64,000 nt of DNA from Lachnospiraceae bacterium. Lineage in GTDB: Bacteria; Bacillota; Clostridia; Lachnospirales; Lachnospiraceae. Numbering within the stretch: the stretch's first letter is position 1; every line of letters begins with the position of its first letter. The position numbers were made by a program, and so were the translations under genes. The notes beneath the pieces are model-generated. The model did no database searches and was not told the origin of the DNA. It saw only the letters and a list, made by a program, of their open reading frames with translations. The DNA is taken from positions 124,001 through 188,000 of the forward strand of contig JAAZZQ010000003.1 in the NCBI GenBank assembly GCA_014239155.1, written 5' to 3'. Positions 31,252 to 64,000 of the stretch are shown here, one piece after another.

Positions 31252-31425
31252 AAGAATGCCATCGGCATTCTTGCTGCGGTGTGCAGGTCAGCTCCGCCGA
31301 CATATTACGCATTCGCGCACCTGCAATCCTGCCGAATGCTTATCTCAGTCGGAGATTATACTCCCATTGAGGCAAAATTGTATTTTACCCACCTATAAAA
31401 GCGGGAATCTTCTTTGGCTGAGAAT
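31252..31425. repeat. About 175-bp interspersed repeat, copy 2
   Basis: Homologous to 6179-6354 along the whole length. In this copy the terminal stem CTCAGTCGGAG/CTTCTTTGGCTGAG pairs 11 of 11 positions if G-T is allowed; the other copy has two or three mismatches. It begins 14 bases after the SIMPL gene. Confidence 0.75.
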
Positions 31426-31426
31426 C

Positions 31427-31504
31427 GAGTAGGGGAAAAATTTTCCCCCTACTCGCCACGTGACCCGTTAGTGGCATATTTCCTCTGCACGGACCTGTGG
31501 ATAA
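31427..31504. repeat. Composite repeat, copy B: GAGTAGGGG hairpin plus BOX-like unit
   Basis: GAGTAGGGG...CCCCTACTC hairpin then ACGTG...TTAGTGGCATATTTCCTCTGC...GTGGATAA. It directly abuts the 175-bp repeat, so two repeat families have landed side by side, or they form one larger unit. Confidence 0.6.
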
Positions 31505-56336: not shown

Positions 56337-56519
56337 AATTCCCTCCTATTTTATCACACCTTTAGTTCTTCTTTTTGGCAACATCTGCCAAAAACAATTC
56401 GGAACGATTTAAACAGAACTGATTCTGCGTAGTTCCTTGTGGTTAGTATGACTGACTTTATCCTGCGTTATTCTTATTTTTTTAATTTTAACATTTTTAA
56501 TATCTTTGGCAAAAAGCCC

Positions 56520-58481
56520 CTATTTTTCTTCCACTTGCAGTTCCGCCCGAATTGTCTTATTTTTGATTTCCTCTGTGATGTCTGCAATAAAACGATCCAA
56601 TAATTTTGCCCCTTCATCACCTGCAAAACGGCTTCTGACAGACACCGTATTATCTGCCTCCTCCTGCTGTCCTACCACAAGCATATACGGCAATTTATCG
56701 AGTCTCGCCTCACGGATTTTAAAGCCAATTTTTTCGGAACGATTGTCAACTGTCGCGTCAATGCCTGCTTTTTTCAATTCTTTGCAAACTTTCTGTGCAT
56801 AGTCTTCATATTTGTCAGAAATTGGAAGCACTCGCACCTGCTCTGCACAGAGCCATGTTGGGAATTTTCCAGCATACTTCTCAATCAACCACGCCAGCGT
56901 GCGCTCGTAGCAGCCCATTGAAGTTCTGTGAATAATATAAGGACGCACTTTCTCTCCATTCTGGTCAATATAATACATATCAAACTGTTCTGCAAGCAAT
57001 GCATCCCACTGAATTGTAATCATTGTGTCTTCCTTGCCATACACATTCTTTGCGTTGATGTCTACCTTTGGACCATAAAAAGCGGCCTCTCCAACATCCT
57101 CCACAAACGGAATGCCAAGCTCTGTCAAAATATCTCGAATATGCTGTTCTGTCTCGTTCCACACCTCCGGCTCGCCTATATACTTTTCTTTGTTTTCAGG
57201 GTCCCATTTAGACAAATGATATGTTACATCATCATTTACCCCCAACGTCTCCAGACAATATTTAGCGAGCGCAAGACACCCTTTAAACTCTTCTACCATC
57301 TGGTCGGGTCTAACAATTAAATGCCCCTCAGAAATGGTAAACTGACGCACTCTGGTCAATCCATGCATTTCCCCAGAATCTTCATTTCTAAATAGCGTTG
57401 AAGTTTCACTGTATCTGCATGGAAGGTCTCTGTAAGATTTTTGCGAATTTTTATACACATAATACTGGAAGGGGCAAGTCATCGGGCGAAGCGCATATAC
57501 TTCTTTGTCCTTCTCCTCGTCGCCAAACACAAACATACCTTCCTTATAATGATCCCAATGTCCCGAAATCTTGTATAAATCTGATTTTGCCATCAGCGGA
57601 GTCCTTGTTCTCATATACCCCCACTCGTTATCCTCAAGGTCTTCTATCCAGCGCTGAAGTTTCATAATCATCTTTGTTCCTTTTGGCGTAAACAATGGAA
57701 GTCCCTGTCCAATTACATCCACTGTGGTGAATAATTCCATTTCACGACCAAGTCTATTATGGTCACGGCGCTTTGCATCCTCCATGCGCTCTAAATGCGC
57801 TGCAAGCTCTTCCTTTTTATTATAGGCTGTACCATAGATGCGCTGCAAACGTGCCTTGTTAGAATCCCCTCTCCAATAGGCCATAGAAGAAGAAGTCAGC
57901 TTAAACGCTTTCACTCCCTTTGTGCTCATCAAGTGTGGTCCTGCACACAAATCTACAAAACCTCCCTGATCATAAAAACGAATCTCAGCATCTTCCGGCA
58001 AATCTTGTATCAATTCTACCTTAAATGGTTCTCCTTTTTCTTCCATAAACTTAATCGCCTCTGCCCTTGGAAGCGTAAAGCTTATAATTTCATGACCTTC
58101 TTTAATAATTGCTTTCATCTCCGCCTCAATTTTGTCCAAATCTTCTCTGGAAAATGGCTCAGAATCAAAATCATAGTAAAATCCATCATCAATCGCAGGC
58201 CCAATTGTAACCTTCGCATTTGGAAACAAACGTTTCACTGCCTCGGCAAGCACATGAGACGCAGTATGTCGAATTACATAAAGTGCTTTGGGGTCTGTCG
58301 CCGTAATAATATTAAGCGCACAATCTTTGTCAATGATGGTTCTAAGGTCCACCATTTCACCGTTAAGCTCCCCCGCACAAGCCACGCGCGCAAGTCCCTC
58401 ACTAATATCTTTTGCAATGTCAATAATTGATTTTGCTTCACTATACTCTTTCACAGAACCATCTTTTAATGTAATTTTCAT
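56520..58481 (-). CDS. thrS: Threonine--tRNA ligase
   Basis: Charges tRNA-Thr. 653 residues in the usual order: TGS (1-60), editing domain with HTASHVLAEAVKRLFP and YDFDSEPF, class II catalytic core (LRPMTCPFQYYVY, TLFRNEDSGEMHGLTRVRQF, FYGPKVDIN, HRTSMGCYERTLAWLIEKYAG) and the C-terminal anticodon-binding domain (VRVLPISDKYEDYAQKV). AAAAAGGAGAGGG precedes the ATG. Only 25 bases separate it from the upstream membrane-protein gene, so no T-box fits there and it probably shares its transcript. A T-box lies 4.9 kb upstream at 63350-63605. Confidence 0.97.
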   Translation of the reverse strand: MKITLKDGSVKEYSEAKSIIDIAKDISEGLARVACAGELNGEMVDLRTIIDKDCALNIITATDPKALYVIRHTASHVLAEAVKRLFPNAKVTIGPAIDDGFYYDFDSEPFSREDLDKIEAEMKAIIKEGHEIISFTLPRAEAIKFMEEKGEPFKVELIQDLPEDAEIRFYDQGGFVDLCAGPHLMSTKGVKAFKLTSSSMAYWRGDSNKARLQRIYGTAYNKKEELAAHLERMEDAKRRDHNRLGREMELFTTVDVIGQGLPLFTPKGTKMIMKLQRWIEDLEDNEWGYMRTRTPLMAKSDLYKISGHWDHYKEGMFVFGDEEKDKEVYALRPMTCPFQYYVYKNSQKSYRDLPCRYSETSTLFRNEDSGEMHGLTRVRQFTISEGHLIVRPDQMVEEFKGCLALAKYCLETLGVNDDVTYHLSKWDPENKEKYIGEPEVWNETEQHIRDILTELGIPFVEDVGEAAFYGPKVDINAKNVYGKEDTMITIQWDALLAEQFDMYYIDQNGEKVRPYIIHRTSMGCYERTLAWLIEKYAGKFPTWLCAEQVRVLPISDKYEDYAQKVCKELKKAGIDATVDNRSEKIGFKIREARLDKLPYMLVVGQQEEADNTVSVRSRFAGDEGAKLLDRFIADITEEIKNKTIRAELQVEEK

Positions 58482-58506
58482 TTTTCCCTCTCCTTTTTAT
58501 TGATTA

Positions 58507-60873
58507 TCAACAATTGTTTTGTTGATTGAATTTTAATCTCTTTCTATTGTCAAATAGGACAATCGCAACAATTAAGATAACAGAGATTGCAGAAACAATA
58601 TATGCGATCTTCCATAAAATAGGAAATTCATATGTGACGCGAATGCTGCCTTTAAAATGTGGCGGTATTGTAATGCTCACCCGATTATCTGTGCCATTTA
58701 CAATACCAAACTCACTGCCAGACGCTATATCACGTGCATGATAATTGTCATAGTTCATAAGTGGTATCTCCACAGCCATTTCTGTTGTTGATGTATTTAT
58801 GCAATCAAATGTTGTGACACCTCCTTTATATTGATAATTTGAAACTGTAACAAAATTTTCATCTGTAAAAATTCTACGCCAGCGAAGATTTCCCTCTATG
58901 GTATCATGAATAATATATTCTCCTCCGCTAACCGCTTTTATAACGTCTGCATCTCCATAAACCCTTTCAATATTGATGCCATTCGTATAAATCGACATAA
59001 ATAAACTGTTTGCAAGGATTGTAAGCAGACAAAGTCCTCCTCCCAAAAGCTGCATATTACGCATACCTTTCAATTCTTTTACGCCATAAAGTCCTATAAC
59101 AGTTGCAACTACCGCAAAGATTGTTGCCATAGAAAGGTATCTCCACGGAAACTGCACAATACACAATACTTTTGCAAGCATTTTATTTAGATTTTCAAGA
59201 CTATCCCAAGGAAAAAAACGCATTGATAAAATAATACTTGCAACCGTAAATATCGTGCAAATATTGCCTGCTTTCATTACCTTATATGTTTTCATGTGCC
59301 ATTCATATTTTGCAGTATAACATACGACAAAAATAATAACGCCAAATACTAATGGCATTCCTAATGACAATGGCATCTCTGCATTCATTCCTCTGCGGCT
59401 GTCTCCAAGAGAAACCTGAAATCCACTAAAAACCTGCTGCAAATAAGTTCCATGCACCTGTATATAATTTATCGGCTCATTATTTACTCGAATATTCATC
59501 TGCATGGAATCCAAAAAAGGAAGAATAAATGCCATATTTACCAATACTGTAAGTACTGCAGCCTTTACAAGTGTGATAAAACGCTTTAATTGAAATGTCT
59601 TTTTATAATTGGCGAAACACAAAACAAGAATAAATATCGCCGATATTTCGCAGGAAAGCACATGACTTTCAATTAGTCCACTAAGTCCTATAACAATTGG
59701 AAGATAGTCACGAATTTTCAACGCTTTCTCTTCCTCAGTGTAAACGCGCATAAACCCATATACAACCAGTGGGAAAAATGTCATTGCAGTATATTCACCG
59801 ACAGCAGCCCTTACATATAAGTTCGTGATTCGATATGGGGAAAGCAAGTAGATAAATGCACCAATGGCAGCAACTTGATTATCCTGCGTAATCCCTTTAA
59901 AACAATAATAAGCAATCCCACAAGTCAAAATATTTATAAAAATTGCATAAATCTGATAACACACCTGCATTGGAACTGCCAAGTTATACAAAATCGCAGG
60001 CAGATATAAAAATAACTGACTATAGAACAAAGGGGAAGCATATCCGTAGCCATTTAGTACCTCTGTCTGAATTGGCACAAAAATATGTCCTGCTTCCAAT
60101 CCGTTTGCAAGTGCCAAAATCCGATTCAAATGAAAATCCAAATCGTGTCCCCAGAACAAGAAATCCGTCAGCAGTGGCAAACTTGCAAAAAAGGAGGCAA
60201 ACATAAGAATCGCAACAATAGACTTATTTGCTGCCTTTTTGCTTACAAAAAAGTAAACATATGTTGCATCCACTGTCAAAAATCCAAGAAGCCATGCAAG
60301 AAACTTCATTACACGCCACATGGGAAGTTCCTGAATTACAATTCTATCAATCCGAAGTTCTCCCATACCATGAAAATTAACCATAAGTTGAAGACCCTCT
60401 TCTCCACCAATGTCGCGAATCCATAGGCGTGTCTTTTGATGGGTATATCCATCTTGAAATATAAGATCATTGTAGCAGAGCTTATCATCTGTAACCTTTG
60501 ACCTGACAATCTGCAAGGTTCCAGTCATATCCTCACAGTTACCACCTACCTCTGTATCATACAAGAGAGACCAGTAATCAACAGAAATCTCATATACTCC
60601 CTCCTTCAAACCAAAGAACTCTGTGCCAGCAATCCATCTGCCAAATGTCTCTGCATCATTTCTTCCAGTAATATAAAATGAATTGTCGTCATTTATAACC
60701 ACTTTTTCATCTCTAATTGTCATATTCCCTGCATCCAGTTTTATTGTTATAGGCTTTTTAAAAAAACCTACAAAAGAAAAACATAATATCAATGCTTGAA
60801 ACAGTACAAAAACACAAAAGCCTTTATATTCTAATCCTAGTTGTCTAATTTTATCTCTCGTCTCAACGTTCAC
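58507..60873 (-). CDS. Polytopic membrane protein, PTPS-related (GT-C-like) family
   Basis: 788 residues from a GTG at 60873 with GAGAGGTG upstream. An N-terminal helix (20-38) is followed by an extracytoplasmic beta-domain (about 40-185) and 10-12 membrane helices (187-650), then a second outer domain (650-760) and a final helix. GHDLDFHLNRILALANGLEAG and NGYGYASPLFYSQLFLYLPAILYN are characteristic of the 6-pyruvoyl-tetrahydropterin-synthase-related membrane family, predicted lipid-linked glycosyltransferases. It lies between a second membrane protein and thrS. Confidence 0.78.
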   Translation of the reverse strand: MNVETRDKIRQLGLEYKGFCVFVLFQALILCFSFVGFFKKPITIKLDAGNMTIRDEKVVINDDNSFYITGRNDAETFGRWIAGTEFFGLKEGVYEISVDYWSLLYDTEVGGNCEDMTGTLQIVRSKVTDDKLCYNDLIFQDGYTHQKTRLWIRDIGGEEGLQLMVNFHGMGELRIDRIVIQELPMWRVMKFLAWLLGFLTVDATYVYFFVSKKAANKSIVAILMFASFFASLPLLTDFLFWGHDLDFHLNRILALANGLEAGHIFVPIQTEVLNGYGYASPLFYSQLFLYLPAILYNLAVPMQVCYQIYAIFINILTCGIAYYCFKGITQDNQVAAIGAFIYLLSPYRITNLYVRAAVGEYTAMTFFPLVVYGFMRVYTEEEKALKIRDYLPIVIGLSGLIESHVLSCEISAIFILVLCFANYKKTFQLKRFITLVKAAVLTVLVNMAFILPFLDSMQMNIRVNNEPINYIQVHGTYLQQVFSGFQVSLGDSRRGMNAEMPLSLGMPLVFGVIIFVVCYTAKYEWHMKTYKVMKAGNICTIFTVASIILSMRFFPWDSLENLNKMLAKVLCIVQFPWRYLSMATIFAVVATVIGLYGVKELKGMRNMQLLGGGLCLLTILANSLFMSIYTNGINIERVYGDADVIKAVSGGEYIIHDTIEGNLRWRRIFTDENFVTVSNYQYKGGVTTFDCINTSTTEMAVEIPLMNYDNYHARDIASGSEFGIVNGTDNRVSITIPPHFKGSIRVTYEFPILWKIAYIVSAISVILIVAIVLFDNRKRLKFNQQNNC

Positions 60874-60919
60874 TTTTCAATACACCTCTCTGATTTTATT
60901 CATTGTCACACAATCTCCA

Positions 60920-62224
60920 TCACAAATCCAAGGAGCTTTCCACGTTTCTTGTCACCTTGTATAAACGTGCACAGATGCACATACAGGCAAATACACTCGT
61001 CAGTAAACCTCGAAATGTAAACCAATGATGCTCATAGGAATGCTGTCCTGCAAAAGCATACCACGCAAATGGCATTGCAGCGATAAGTAGAAATGGAAAA
61101 ACATCAACAATAACACTGATTATCGATTTTCTATTTCTAAAAACTCCTACGATTGCAACAATAAAACATATGACAATTAAAATCAAATATGGTTTCTCAA
61201 AATAAAACTCCAAATTACGAATCCATGTATCAATCGTTGTGATTTTCTCACCATTTTGTAGATGGGAGGAGCGCAATAAAACCTGCGACAGTGCATTTGC
61301 AATCACATTATCCTTCAAAATCAGTGTACTTAACACCCATTTTCCAGCCCACATTGCACTGTATCCAAAACCCCAACTTATAGAAAGATAAACTATCTTT
61401 TTAATTTTCAGCCAAAGTGCACTATTAGAATCAAGTATTAATAAACACACCATAGGAACACCAAGACTCGCTGTAGGATATGTCAGAAAATCAAAGTAGC
61501 TTGTTGCCATTCCAATCATCTGGAAATATAATATCATACCATTTTTATTCACAAGTTGGTCATACTTTTTCAACAAAATCCACAATGCAATATTTGTGAG
61601 ATAGAACATCACAGAAAACTGTATTGAAAGCGGAATTACAACAGGCATAATAAAGAGAACTGCCACAATATAACCCCAAGCTTCTCGCTTAAATCCCATG
61701 TCTTTCAATGTATTGAAAATGAGAAACATTAGTAATATATCGAGTATCATATTAAGCACACGCAAATCTGCATAACTAAAAAATAGCAGTAATGGTTTTA
61801 ATATGATAAGATAACCATGCCAGTATCTAGTGTATTCTACTTCTTTATATCCATCTGGTTCTTCCAAGTAGTGCACAAGTCCATTCAATGGTCCATCGCC
61901 ATAATCTGCACTTGTGCAAGTAAGCGCTCTCTTCCATATAGGAAGATCGTTATCATAAACCGCATTTCCTATCATCCATGAATCTGTATAATTGTCAAGC
62001 TGTGTACTGTTATATCCTGGAATCACTCTATGGTACTCTTGTTCCACTGTCAAAATATCTATAGACTTTGATAAATTTTCCTGCATTTTTCCTACGGGCA
62101 GAAGATACACCACCATCAGCATCAAATAACCTGTCATTATACCAATTACAAGTAGAATAACAGATTGCACCACTTGACTCGTACAATTTTTTAGTATATT
62201 TCCTTTTGATTTTTTTTGTTTCAT
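60920..62224 (-). CDS. Polytopic membrane protein, GT-C-like
   Basis: 434 residues, about 9-10 hydrophobic segments (near 18-43, 138-160, 160-180, 185-210, 210-235, 240-265, 275-300, 340-360, 375-395). An acidic extracytoplasmic loop after helix 1 contains SWMIGNAVY and YTRYWHGYLIILKP, a layout recalling GT-C glycosyltransferases. No family was recognised with certainty. Same strand and 47 bases before the 788-residue protein. Confidence 0.6.
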   Translation of the reverse strand: MKQKKSKGNILKNCTSQVVQSVILLVIGIMTGYLMLMVVYLLPVGKMQENLSKSIDILTVEQEYHRVIPGYNSTQLDNYTDSWMIGNAVYDNDLPIWKRALTCTSADYGDGPLNGLVHYLEEPDGYKEVEYTRYWHGYLIILKPLLLFFSYADLRVLNMILDILLMFLIFNTLKDMGFKREAWGYIVAVLFIMPVVIPLSIQFSVMFYLTNIALWILLKKYDQLVNKNGMILYFQMIGMATSYFDFLTYPTASLGVPMVCLLILDSNSALWLKIKKIVYLSISWGFGYSAMWAGKWVLSTLILKDNVIANALSQVLLRSSHLQNGEKITTIDTWIRNLEFYFEKPYLILIVICFIVAIVGVFRNRKSIISVIVDVFPFLLIAAMPFAWYAFAGQHSYEHHWFTFRGLLTSVFACMCICARLYKVTRNVESSLDL

Positions 62225-62305
62225 TTCATCTATTCCTATTGTTTATGATATTATCATTCTTTGCGCGCGCCAATCATCATATCATTGGCTTTGTTTCTAC
62301 AACCA

Positions 62306-62413
62306 TTATTTGATCCAAATGCATTGTTGCTCAATACGGAGATTCGACCGCCTCACTGGTGATAACAAAATCCCAATTGCGATTCCCACCACTAGGCATA
62401 ACACTGGCAGCAT
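62306..62413 (-). CDS. Small hydrophobic ORF, possible membrane peptide
   Basis: 35 codons from an ATG at 62413 with AAAGGAG 8 bases upstream. The peptide begins with LPVLCLVVGIAIGILLSPVR, a single membrane helix with a positive end. It sits in the gap between the SUKH-like gene and the 434-residue membrane protein. Similar small N-terminal anchors occur in Lachnospiraceae membrane proteins; it could be a remnant. Confidence 0.45.
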   Translation of the reverse strand: MLPVLCLVVGIAIGILLSPVRRSNLRIEQQCIWIK

Positions 62414-62442
62414 AATGTAATCTCCTTTTCTTATATAACTTT

Positions 62443-63276
62443 CTATTTTGCTAAACTTTTACCACTTTTTTCCGAATATCCATCTTCACCACGTATTTTC
62501 TTAAATTGTTCTATCACATCACTTTCATAGGAACCAATCTGTATATCTGAATAAAATTCTCCTGTCCTAAGCCATGCAATTGTTTTTGTATTCTGGTTTA
62601 ACATAACAGCACACGACCAGTTATAATATCCATCAAATCGAATAAAAATTGACTGAAAAGACTCCTCGAGAAGCTCACAAGCGCTTATCTCACTTGTTGG
62701 ATACCCTTTTATTCTATAGGTCCCACAAAAAGGCATTCTGCCAATTGCCTGTATAGCAACATATTCTAGTATCATCTCACAAAAAGATTCCATACAGATC
62801 TCATACTCCCAGCTTGAATCTGTCTTATTTTCCTCCCACAGCATACTATGATGCACAGCTAGATCAATTCCAAGATAAACTTTTTTGCGTTTTCCTCGAC
62901 ACAACACAGCTAAAACATTATCTTTTACAAATAGTTCTTCCAGTTCTAGCAAGCGACATTTATTTCCTATCAAAATTTTGTCTTTGTCAACCACCAAATA
63001 TAACGCCTTAACCACATCGGGCAATTTGATTCGCAGCCTACCTTCTGCCTTTTCAATGTCTTCTATGACATTTTCACTTTTCTTTAAATGAAGCATTTGA
63101 GATACTATCTCAATAAATCTTATCATATTTTCAATCTCTTCCTGACAATTGGCATGGTTCTGATACAACTGCGGCAGCCCTTCATCATTGTACCGTTCAT
63201 TTAATATTTCAGATTGGAAATACTCTCCTTCAAAAATTTTTTTGCCCTGCATATCTACTTTATATTTTCCATACAT
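62443..63276 (-). CDS. Hypothetical protein with SUKH-like segment
   Basis: 277 residues, no signal or membrane segment. The segment IEDIEKAEGRLRIKLPDVVKALYL (about 70-93) resembles the start of a SMI1/KNR4 domain, in which an acidic helix precedes LP..L...Y. The rest is mixed alpha/beta and unrecognised. GGGAGGGAG stands 5 bases before the ATG. It is the first gene after the T-box at 63350-63605, which would be an unexpected regulatory partner. Confidence 0.55.
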   Translation of the reverse strand: MYGKYKVDMQGKKIFEGEYFQSEILNERYNDEGLPQLYQNHANCQEEIENMIRFIEIVSQMLHLKKSENVIEDIEKAEGRLRIKLPDVVKALYLVVDKDKILIGNKCRLLELEELFVKDNVLAVLCRGKRKKVYLGIDLAVHHSMLWEENKTDSSWEYEICMESFCEMILEYVAIQAIGRMPFCGTYRIKGYPTSEISACELLEESFQSIFIRFDGYYNWSCAVMLNQNTKTIAWLRTGEFYSDIQIGSYESDVIEQFKKIRGEDGYSEKSGKSLAK

Positions 63277-63289
63277 AATCTCCCTCCCT

Positions 63290-63350
63290 TACTCCATCAC
63301 CATGTATCACTTTAGTGACTTATTTCTTCTGCGCAGGTCTGTGCATAATA
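63290..63350. repeat. BOX-like short interspersed repeat, copy A
   Basis: On the minus strand TTATTATGCACAGACC.GCGCAGAAGAAATAAGTCACTAAAGTG, resembling copies at 31427 and 22485. It lies between the T-box terminator and the SUKH-like gene; the terminator's T tail joins it. Confidence 0.6.
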
Positions 63351-63605
63351 AAAAATCCCACACACTACATCACTGTAATGCATGGGACGTATTAACGCGG
63401 TTCCACCCTGCTTGCCTGTATCACTAAACTGAAAACAGACCACTCATCGATTATAACGGAATCACCGGACCGGATTAGGATCACTCCAAGGTAGTTTTCA
63501 AATATCTCCTGTAAGAGTACTTTCAGCACAAATGGCACTCCTCTCTGTTACATTACAATATCCTACTCGTCTCATCAACGTTTTGCGTTATTTATTTTTT
63601 CACTT
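63350..63605 (-). promoter_or_regulatory. T-box leader, best-fit specifier ACT (Thr)
   Basis: Minus strand. The T-box sequence AGGGTGGAACCGCG is at 63396-63409. It is followed by a 13-bp terminator stem (63356-63368 with 63375-63387) and a T run. Upstream is a stem I region starting GTTGATGAGACGAGTAGG, with GAAAACTACC on the 3' side of the specifier loop. Read as GAA-N-specifier-A, as in B. subtilis glyQS, this gives ACT, threonine. The nearest gene downstream is not a synthetase; thrS lies 4.9 kb further on the same strand. Confidence 0.85.
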
Positions 63606-63615
63606 TTATCAGTCT

Positions 63616-64000
63616 TTATAGTTTCAAAATTGCAATTCGTTCTTCCCCATCCATTTCTCCAGTTTCAACAAATCCAAATGAATGGTATAACTGACTGGCA
63701 ATTTCATTTTCAGGTTCATATGACAACCAACAGTATTCTGCTTCACCACACGGAAATGTTTTTATAAATTTTAATGCAAGTCTGACTGCTTCTTTTCCAT
63801 ATCCTTTATTCTGATAGTTTTTATCTATCATCAATCGCCAGAGATTATAATTACTCTTGGCTATTAATGGAGCATCATCCCAGTAATCGTCTGTATCAAA
63901 ACCTACCATTAAAAAACCTACTGGTATATCATCCTCATATATTCCAAAAGGAAAAGCATAACCATTTCCCATTATGGTGGTATAGGCTTCTATAATACTA
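63616..64000 (-). CDS. GNAT family acetyltransferase (5' end outside window)
   Basis: The frame is open from the right edge (reading SIIEAYTTIMGNGYAFPFGIY...) to 63616, about 128 codons, so it starts beyond the window; the ATG at 63972 is probably internal. VGFLMVGFDTDDYW, NLWRLMIDKNYQNKGYGKEAVRLAL (acetyl-CoA loop) and WLSYEPENEIASQLYHSFGFVETG place it in GNAT, similar to SpeG-like or BltD-like amine acetylases. It ends just before the T-box. Confidence 0.87.
   Translation of the reverse strand, partial: SIIEAYTTIMGNGYAFPFGIYEDDIPVGFLMVGFDTDDYWDDAPLIAKSNYNLWRLMIDKNYQNKGYGKEAVRLALKFIKTFPCGEAEYCWLSYEPENEIASQLYHSFGFVETGEMDGEERIAILKL

Follow-up and report, generated by a model that had tools for sequence, protein, structure and literature searches.

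A threonine T-box probably separated from its thrS gene by successive gene insertions in a Lachnospiraceae genome

Results

A threonine T-box lies far upstream of thrS

In a 64,000-nucleotide stretch of DNA from a Lachnospiraceae bacterium (GenBank assembly GCA_014239155.1, contig JAAZZQ010000003.1, positions 124,001 to 188,000; hereafter the window), the gene for threonyl-tRNA synthetase (ThrRS), thrS, starts 4.9 kb downstream of a threonine-type T-box on the same strand. T-boxes normally lie directly upstream of the synthetase or amino-acid gene that they control. The arrangement is very probably the product of an original thrS threonine T-box unit that was stretched by successive gene insertions, the inserted genes joining the threonine-starvation response. 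The order along the one strand is promoter motif, acetyltransferase gene, T-box, SUKH-like gene, broken small ORF, two membrane protein genes and thrS (Table 1), and from comparison with related genomes at least three additions appear to have stretched the unit, namely the acetyltransferase piece, the SUKH-like gene and the membrane pair. From the T-box onward, this is the order already listed in an initial annotation of the window, including the 25 bases that separate thrS from the gene before it.

Table 1. Features of the stretched thrS unit (window coordinates).
Feature	Position	Strand	Basis or remark
Acetyltransferase (GNAT) gene, 3' part in window	63616..64000	-	Pfam PF00583, E 4.6e-11; whole gene 64098-63616, 160 aa
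Threonine T-box leader with intrinsic terminator	63355..63587	-	RF00230 match 63380-63587; terminator scan
Specifier triplet ACU (Thr) in the Stem I specifier loop	63493..63495	-	Context GAA-A-ACT-A-CC; covariance-model alignment
T-box core AGGGTGGAACCGCG	63396..63409	-	Sequence
UGGA bulge	63405-63402	-	Pairs with the tRNA-Thr 3' end (discriminator U)
Partial copy of a dispersed palindromic repeat, right after the terminator	63281..63346	-	Alignment with the full G003 copy, same place
SUKH-like protein gene, 277 aa, first after the T-box	62443..63276	-	Pfam SMI1_KNR4, below cut-off
Broken remnant of a ~66 aa single-helix protein	62263..62467	-	Profile A1 matches in two pieces; intact relatives
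Polytopic membrane protein, 434 aa, inserted	60920..62224	-	Relatives in surface-polysaccharide clusters
Large polytopic membrane protein, 788 aa, inserted	58507..60873	-	Relatives in surface-polysaccharide clusters
thrS, threonyl-tRNA synthetase, last gene of the stretched unit	56520..58481	-	Pfam TGS, tRNA_SAD, tRNA-synt_2b, HGTP_anticodon

The T-box leader and its threonine specifier

The Rfam T-box model RF00230 matched the leader with 86.8 bits and an E-value of 2.3e-18 (cmscan, 8 kb searched), or 3.2e-19 in a search of the whole genome, and the match covers model positions 1-219, which is the whole element. The default Rfam scan does not list the element, because its score lies under the curated gathering score of 93, and it was recovered in E-value mode; six of the ten RF00230 T-boxes carried by this genome (G000) score under the same threshold. 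A terminator scan placed a 15-pair stem followed by a T run at 63388-63355, and this stem takes up the GTCCC that the model pairs with GGG of the core, so that it competes with the antiterminator. The interval first annotated for the T-box, 63350-63605, was right within about 20 bases according to the RF00230 match and the terminator, and its specifier reading of ACT, for threonine, is borne out by the covariance-model alignment obtained with Infernal.

As a control, the specifiers of the other nine T-boxes of the genome were read at the same model column. They are CUC before a leuA-like gene, GUA before valS, UGG before trpE, UUC before pheS, UAC before tyrS, CCU before proS, AUC before ileS, ACC before a second ThrRS gene and AAC before an aspartyl-tRNA-synthetase-like gene, the gene names being by-eye readings of protein starts except for the second ThrRS, which was identified by sequence comparison. 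The expected amino acid is obtained directly in eight of the nine, and the ninth is the Asn codon before the aspartyl-tRNA-synthetase-like gene. The variable base of the bulge is A in both Thr T-boxes of the genome and U in the remaining eight. Three tRNA-Thr genes were found (anticodons TGT, CGT and GGT), all ending by eye in discriminator U, and the UGGA bulge fits this base.

The tRNA genes scanned, a part of 53 tRNA matches, included no tRNA-Thr(AGU), so the ACU specifier needs a wobble pair; the GGU tRNA would read it through a G-U wobble at the third base of the specifier. TBDB (PMC7778990) discusses wobble where a specifier occurs without a matching tRNA, and the shares of Thr specifiers that it gives, 0.60 for ACC, 0.13 for ACA and 0.01 for ACG, would leave about a quarter for ACU by subtraction. 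As a side observation on tRNA-like sequences, three tandem tRNA-like genes lie 16 kb to the left of the window (G000:C82:107381-107774; L293 882-1275), each with an extra hairpin of about 45 bases and GCAGCAA in its middle. They score 42-45 bits with the Infernal tRNA model, ARAGORN reported none of them and they overlap with weak matches of the Y RNA-like (YrlA) kind. They are possibly Y RNA-like tRNA mimics; a gene nearby encodes a DUF7788 domain (L297:8733-9500).

Comparison of thrS loci points to an ancestral T-box

Upstream regions of thrS were compared in 33 same-genus regions (the window's own included) and in 80 named loci, mostly from uncultured Lachnospiraceae. Five named loci duplicate genus regions, which gives 108 unique thrS loci, 106 of them usable. 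A T-box with a readable specifier was found upstream of thrS in 85 of the 106, and when read with a pattern that did not force AC these specifiers comprise 48 ACT, 36 ACC and one misparse, an odd TGT in L172, where the triplet falls in AGAGAAATGTATTTGCTGAG, outside any specifier loop. Within the genus, a Thr T-box precedes thrS in 28 of 32 usable loci (own included); a 29th would be G028, in which the T-box core alone is visible and the leader is cut by the contig end. The 9.5-kb thrS regions (about 9 kb upstream) of G018, G030 and G037 (L063, L064 and L065) contain no Rfam T-box and still keep the small membrane ORF described below. L063 also has a strong TwoAYGGAY RNA match (128.9 bits).

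The distance from T-box to thrS has a median of 253 bases and exceeds 700 in eight of the 85 loci, six of which belong to this genus. Twenty-two genus T-box loci have gaps not over 700 bases, and the six with long insertions (G000, G006, G001, G003, G021 and G023) group as a single clade when thrS DNA from 30 of the 38 genus genomes is placed in a midpoint-rooted tree, with support of 95/99 for the clade and 100/100 for G000 with G006. Long gaps outside the genus are seen in L153, another Lachnospiraceae genome with an alpha-L-arabinofuranosidase gene (782 aa; L153:5622-7970) between Thr T-box and thrS, and in L146, with a 137 aa gene that has no Pfam match.

Because same-genus relatives keep a Thr T-box ahead of their orthologous thrS, generally at a distance of no more than a few hundred bases, the window T-box is the ancestral thrS T-box, in agreement with the initial annotation, which had called it the original one. 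The inserted genes are not always at this place in the relatives. The membrane pair in particular, lying between the small ORF and thrS, is found elsewhere only in G006 among the 32 usable same-genus loci, which supports its proposed insertion between T-box and thrS. In G006 the pair has decayed, the first gene being frame-broken and the second mostly deleted. Codon composition also sets the inserted genes apart, with GC3 of 22-32% (the acetyltransferase by its in-window part) versus 40-46% for thrS, infC and rplT.

The junctions themselves recur in other assemblies. G036 carries the order promoter, GNAT, T-box, SUKH-like gene and membrane genes at 99.84% identity over 7,951 bases, up to a contig end inside the 788 aa gene, before thrS, and G006 shares the junction from the membrane pair to thrS in diverged and decayed form. 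The window comes from a metagenome bin in 89 contigs with an estimated contamination of 4%, from which a false join of contigs might be suspected; the junctions common to G036 and G006 led us to reject such an artefact, which we consider extremely improbable.

The ancestral promoter is separated from the T-box by an acetyltransferase gene

A pattern search placed a promoter-like motif, CTTTACA, about 17 bases and ATAATATA, immediately in front of the T-box in 23 of 28 same-genus loci. Four of the five misses show recognisable variants by eye, and the fifth is the window's genome, where the motif is found at about 64277, outside the window, and precedes the acetyltransferase gene rather than the T-box. 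The piece that carries this gene, inserted between the ancestral promoter and the T-box, spans 639 bases (about 64238-63600), and its two flanks are only 2 bases apart in G006 (blastn). The acetyltransferase occurs in none of the other 32 same-genus regions, and 28 bases separate its stop codon from the first base of the T-box. The insertions had initially been placed between T-box and thrS, an extent that is too small, as it misses this gene upstream of the T-box, which reaches beyond the window. A weak promoter-like pair near the acetyltransferase end could drive the T-box by itself.

The SUKH-like gene occupies a variable slot after the T-box

The likeness of the first protein after the T-box to SUKH (SMI1/KNR4) proteins consists in a weak Pfam match over 48 residues (PF09346, E 0.005), which with 17.9 bits falls below the curated cut-off of 25.4; it also differs from them in that no toxin gene was recognised by eye among its neighbours. 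PADLOC returned nothing for the four proteins tested. In G001 and G023 this slot is filled by orthologues (72%), and a remnant is present in G006. For this gene dN is 0.18 versus a dS of 2.4 between G000 and G023, and 0.07 versus 0.97 between G001 and G023 (dS was too large to estimate for several gene pairs, including this gene in G000 and G001), which suggests purifying selection in three species and hence a gene that has been kept. The same slot holds a 2'-5' RNA ligase-like gene (Pfam) in G003 and a visibly similar gene in G021. Because the clade has a mixture of SUKH-like and ligase-like cargo, the slot after the T-box has been filled or swapped more than once.

The retention of the SUKH-like gene in one slot of three species, with dN far below dS, and the restriction of the genus's long insertions to a single clade would fit an adaptive recruitment, in which a cell starved of threonine benefits from remodelling its surface glycans and making an immunity-like protein. 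We regard this as doubtful, since the membrane pair is decaying in G006 and the cargo, of putative function, varies by species between SUKH-like and 2'-5' RNA ligase-like proteins.

The palindromic repeat that follows the terminator is about 90 bases long in full and forms a 13-pair hairpin, and a further copy lies at window positions 31416-31488. With a threshold of E 0.01, the scored candidates gave 6 to 44 full or partial matches per genome, and all seven genomes examined had some. The repeat may help recombination.

The small ORF is a remnant of a native gene

The 35-codon ORF (62413-62306), initially taken for one of the foreign genes, falls within the small-protein remnant and turned out to be part of a broken copy of the native gene that usually precedes thrS in the genus. 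In the window its first codons are missing and it contains one stop and one frame change; the same two profile-A1 pieces are present in G036. The intact protein, about 66 residues long, combines a single hydrophobic helix with a GxxxG-[AS]P motif and a tail rich in Asn and Gly. Strong matches, with E-values no higher than 5.1e-18, were found in 25 of the 38 genus members, all upstream of thrS and on its strand, and the distance to thrS is within 188 bases in 24 of the 25 and 1,985 bases in G006. The median dN/dS is 0.14 (19 genus sequences, 68 of 171 pairs with dS of 0.05-1.5). NCBIfam gave nothing above cut-off for three members, and Pfam gave weak scattered matches alone for 25.

In the wider family a small-protein match was found in 27 of 150 genomes, with thrS in the fetched locus in 10, as the window's own in one and elsewhere in 16. 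A thrS-specific protein was rejected on these 16 matches outside thrS loci, 15 of which were inspected and some weak ones of which may be chance. The small-protein matches beside non-thrS genes, for example glutamine synthetase-like and aspartokinase-like genes (by eye), are at L243, L244, L246, L248-L256 and L259-L261, and the weakest of them may be chance matches.

The membrane pair has relatives in surface-polysaccharide clusters

Neither the 434 nor the 788 aa protein has a Pfam match. Among their aligned relatives, a weak Tetraspanin match (E 0.0027) was seen in two of 16 in one set, and none of 11 in the other had any Pfam match. In NCBIfam the 434 aa protein gave two NuoK matches, both far short of the cut-off, and the 788 aa protein gave none; the family profiles of both gave no PDB-sequence match. 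The two had been annotated as predicted glycosyltransferases, which was not confirmed: searches of Pfam, NCBIfam and PDB sequences did not place them in the GT-C group, and the evidence that points this way is that of the gene neighbourhood alone.

In G001, G023 and G011, relatives of the pair are found in clusters alongside genes resembling those for glycosyltransferases, MBOAT proteins and ABC transporters (roles assigned by eye). On contig C78 of the window's genome, a 45% paralogue of the 788 aa protein has relatives of two such cluster genes in its vicinity; this genome yielded no further homologue of the 434 aa protein. As the relatives lie in surface-polysaccharide clusters and two cluster-gene relatives lie near the paralogue on C78, the membrane pair plausibly derives from such clusters, its genes having been moved or copied to the thrS unit.

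Predicted transcription of the stretched unit

Transcription would start at the ancestral promoter before the acetyltransferase gene. With tRNA-Thr charged, it is predicted to stop at the T-box terminator, so that the acetyltransferase alone is made, and uncharged tRNA-Thr with the GGU anticodon would favour the antiterminator and allow read-through of the SUKH-like gene, the two membrane protein genes and thrS. The inserted genes would thereby enter the threonine-starvation response, at first by position, and unrelated proteins are thus probably placed under threonine-starvation control.

We infer that transcription continues through the 4.9 kb to thrS because the genes share a strand, the ORFs are separated by 25-81 bases (29, 81, 46 and 25 bases in order from the T-box side) and transcription signals are no commoner than in shuffled sequence. 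Counting against read-through, the SUKH-like and 434 aa genes are 218 bases apart if the broken small ORF is left uncounted. On both strands of 56400-64000 there are 22 promoter-like sites versus 28.0 expected in shuffles (sigma-70-like only) and four terminator-like sites versus 3.8, an excess of neither. A strong promoter or terminator between 62443 and 58481 would isolate thrS; the sites present there include two promoter-like ones on the minus strand that match 10 of 12 positions, at 62053 and 61998 in the 434 aa gene, and a weak minus-strand terminator-like site inside the 788 aa gene, at 59359, none clearly standing out above the shuffles. The promoter-like sites nearest to thrS on the minus strand, at 59209 and 59046, match 9 of 12 positions.

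Internal promoters are common in long operons, and the insertions might have uncoupled thrS from its T-box, so that a promoter inside the inserted genes drives thrS and the T-box controls the inserted genes alone. The 25 bases before thrS leave no room for a leader, the two 10-of-12 sites could serve as such promoters and a second ThrRS gene with its own T-box exists. We judge the uncoupling unlikely, given that sigma-70-like sites are no commoner than in shuffles, that the nearest before thrS reach just 9 of 12, and that G006, with a decayed insertion and 2.7 kb from T-box to thrS, still keeps both T-box and thrS.

The second ThrRS gene (G000:C41:300517-302575, about 42% identity) is intact and lies directly behind its own ACC T-box; a suspected internal stop proved to be the end of the gene, whose frame stays open for 608 codons. 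This second synthetase may act as a buffer for the cell during the stretching of the first, and with a second T-box-controlled ThrRS present the window thrS may be free to drift.

Discussion

T-box leaders of thrS and thrZ in Firmicutes were reportedly described by Putzer et al. in 1992. The leader described here resembles them in its RF00230 match, Thr specifier, UGGA bulge, terminator and position upstream of thrS, and in the presence of two ThrRS genes that each have a T-box. What sets it apart is that thrS here comes fourth or fifth among the ORFs that follow the T-box, and that a gene stands between promoter and T-box.

In one survey (PMC2494555, Table 2), the Streptococcus pneumoniae gene spr1471, a "tRNA ligase related hypothetical", heads a unit under a Thr T-box. 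The stretched unit is like the spr1471 unit in having a gene of unknown function first behind a synthetase-type T-box. It differs in that it has received several insertions, which differ in origin and one of which lies upstream of the T-box, and in that relatives show intermediates. Gene capture by a T-box is thus not new in kind, since unknown-function genes behind synthetase-type T-boxes are already listed there.

The stepwise record in relatives, the separation of promoter and T-box and the small protein appear new to us. The literature searched yielded no published link of a T-box riboswitch with Lachnospiraceae, and the matches listed for T-box together with SUKH were unrelated.

A broader proposal, which we advance tentatively and hold as possible rather than probable, is that the thrS T-box unit has become a gene-capture site in one Lachnospiraceae clade. 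The mid-operon T-box would split the transcript between a constitutive acetyltransferase and, under threonine starvation, the SUKH-like protein, surface-glycan membrane proteins and thrS, and selection would keep some of the captured genes as additional parts of the response to starvation.

The locus exposes a conserved small single-helix membrane protein upstream of thrS that has no convincing Pfam or NCBIfam family, and the coding gene between promoter and T-box makes mid-operon T-box function directly testable. With its intermediates, it illustrates how a synthetase-specific RNA switch can gain unrelated genes, the T-box regulon growing by insertion and not by movement of the T-box.
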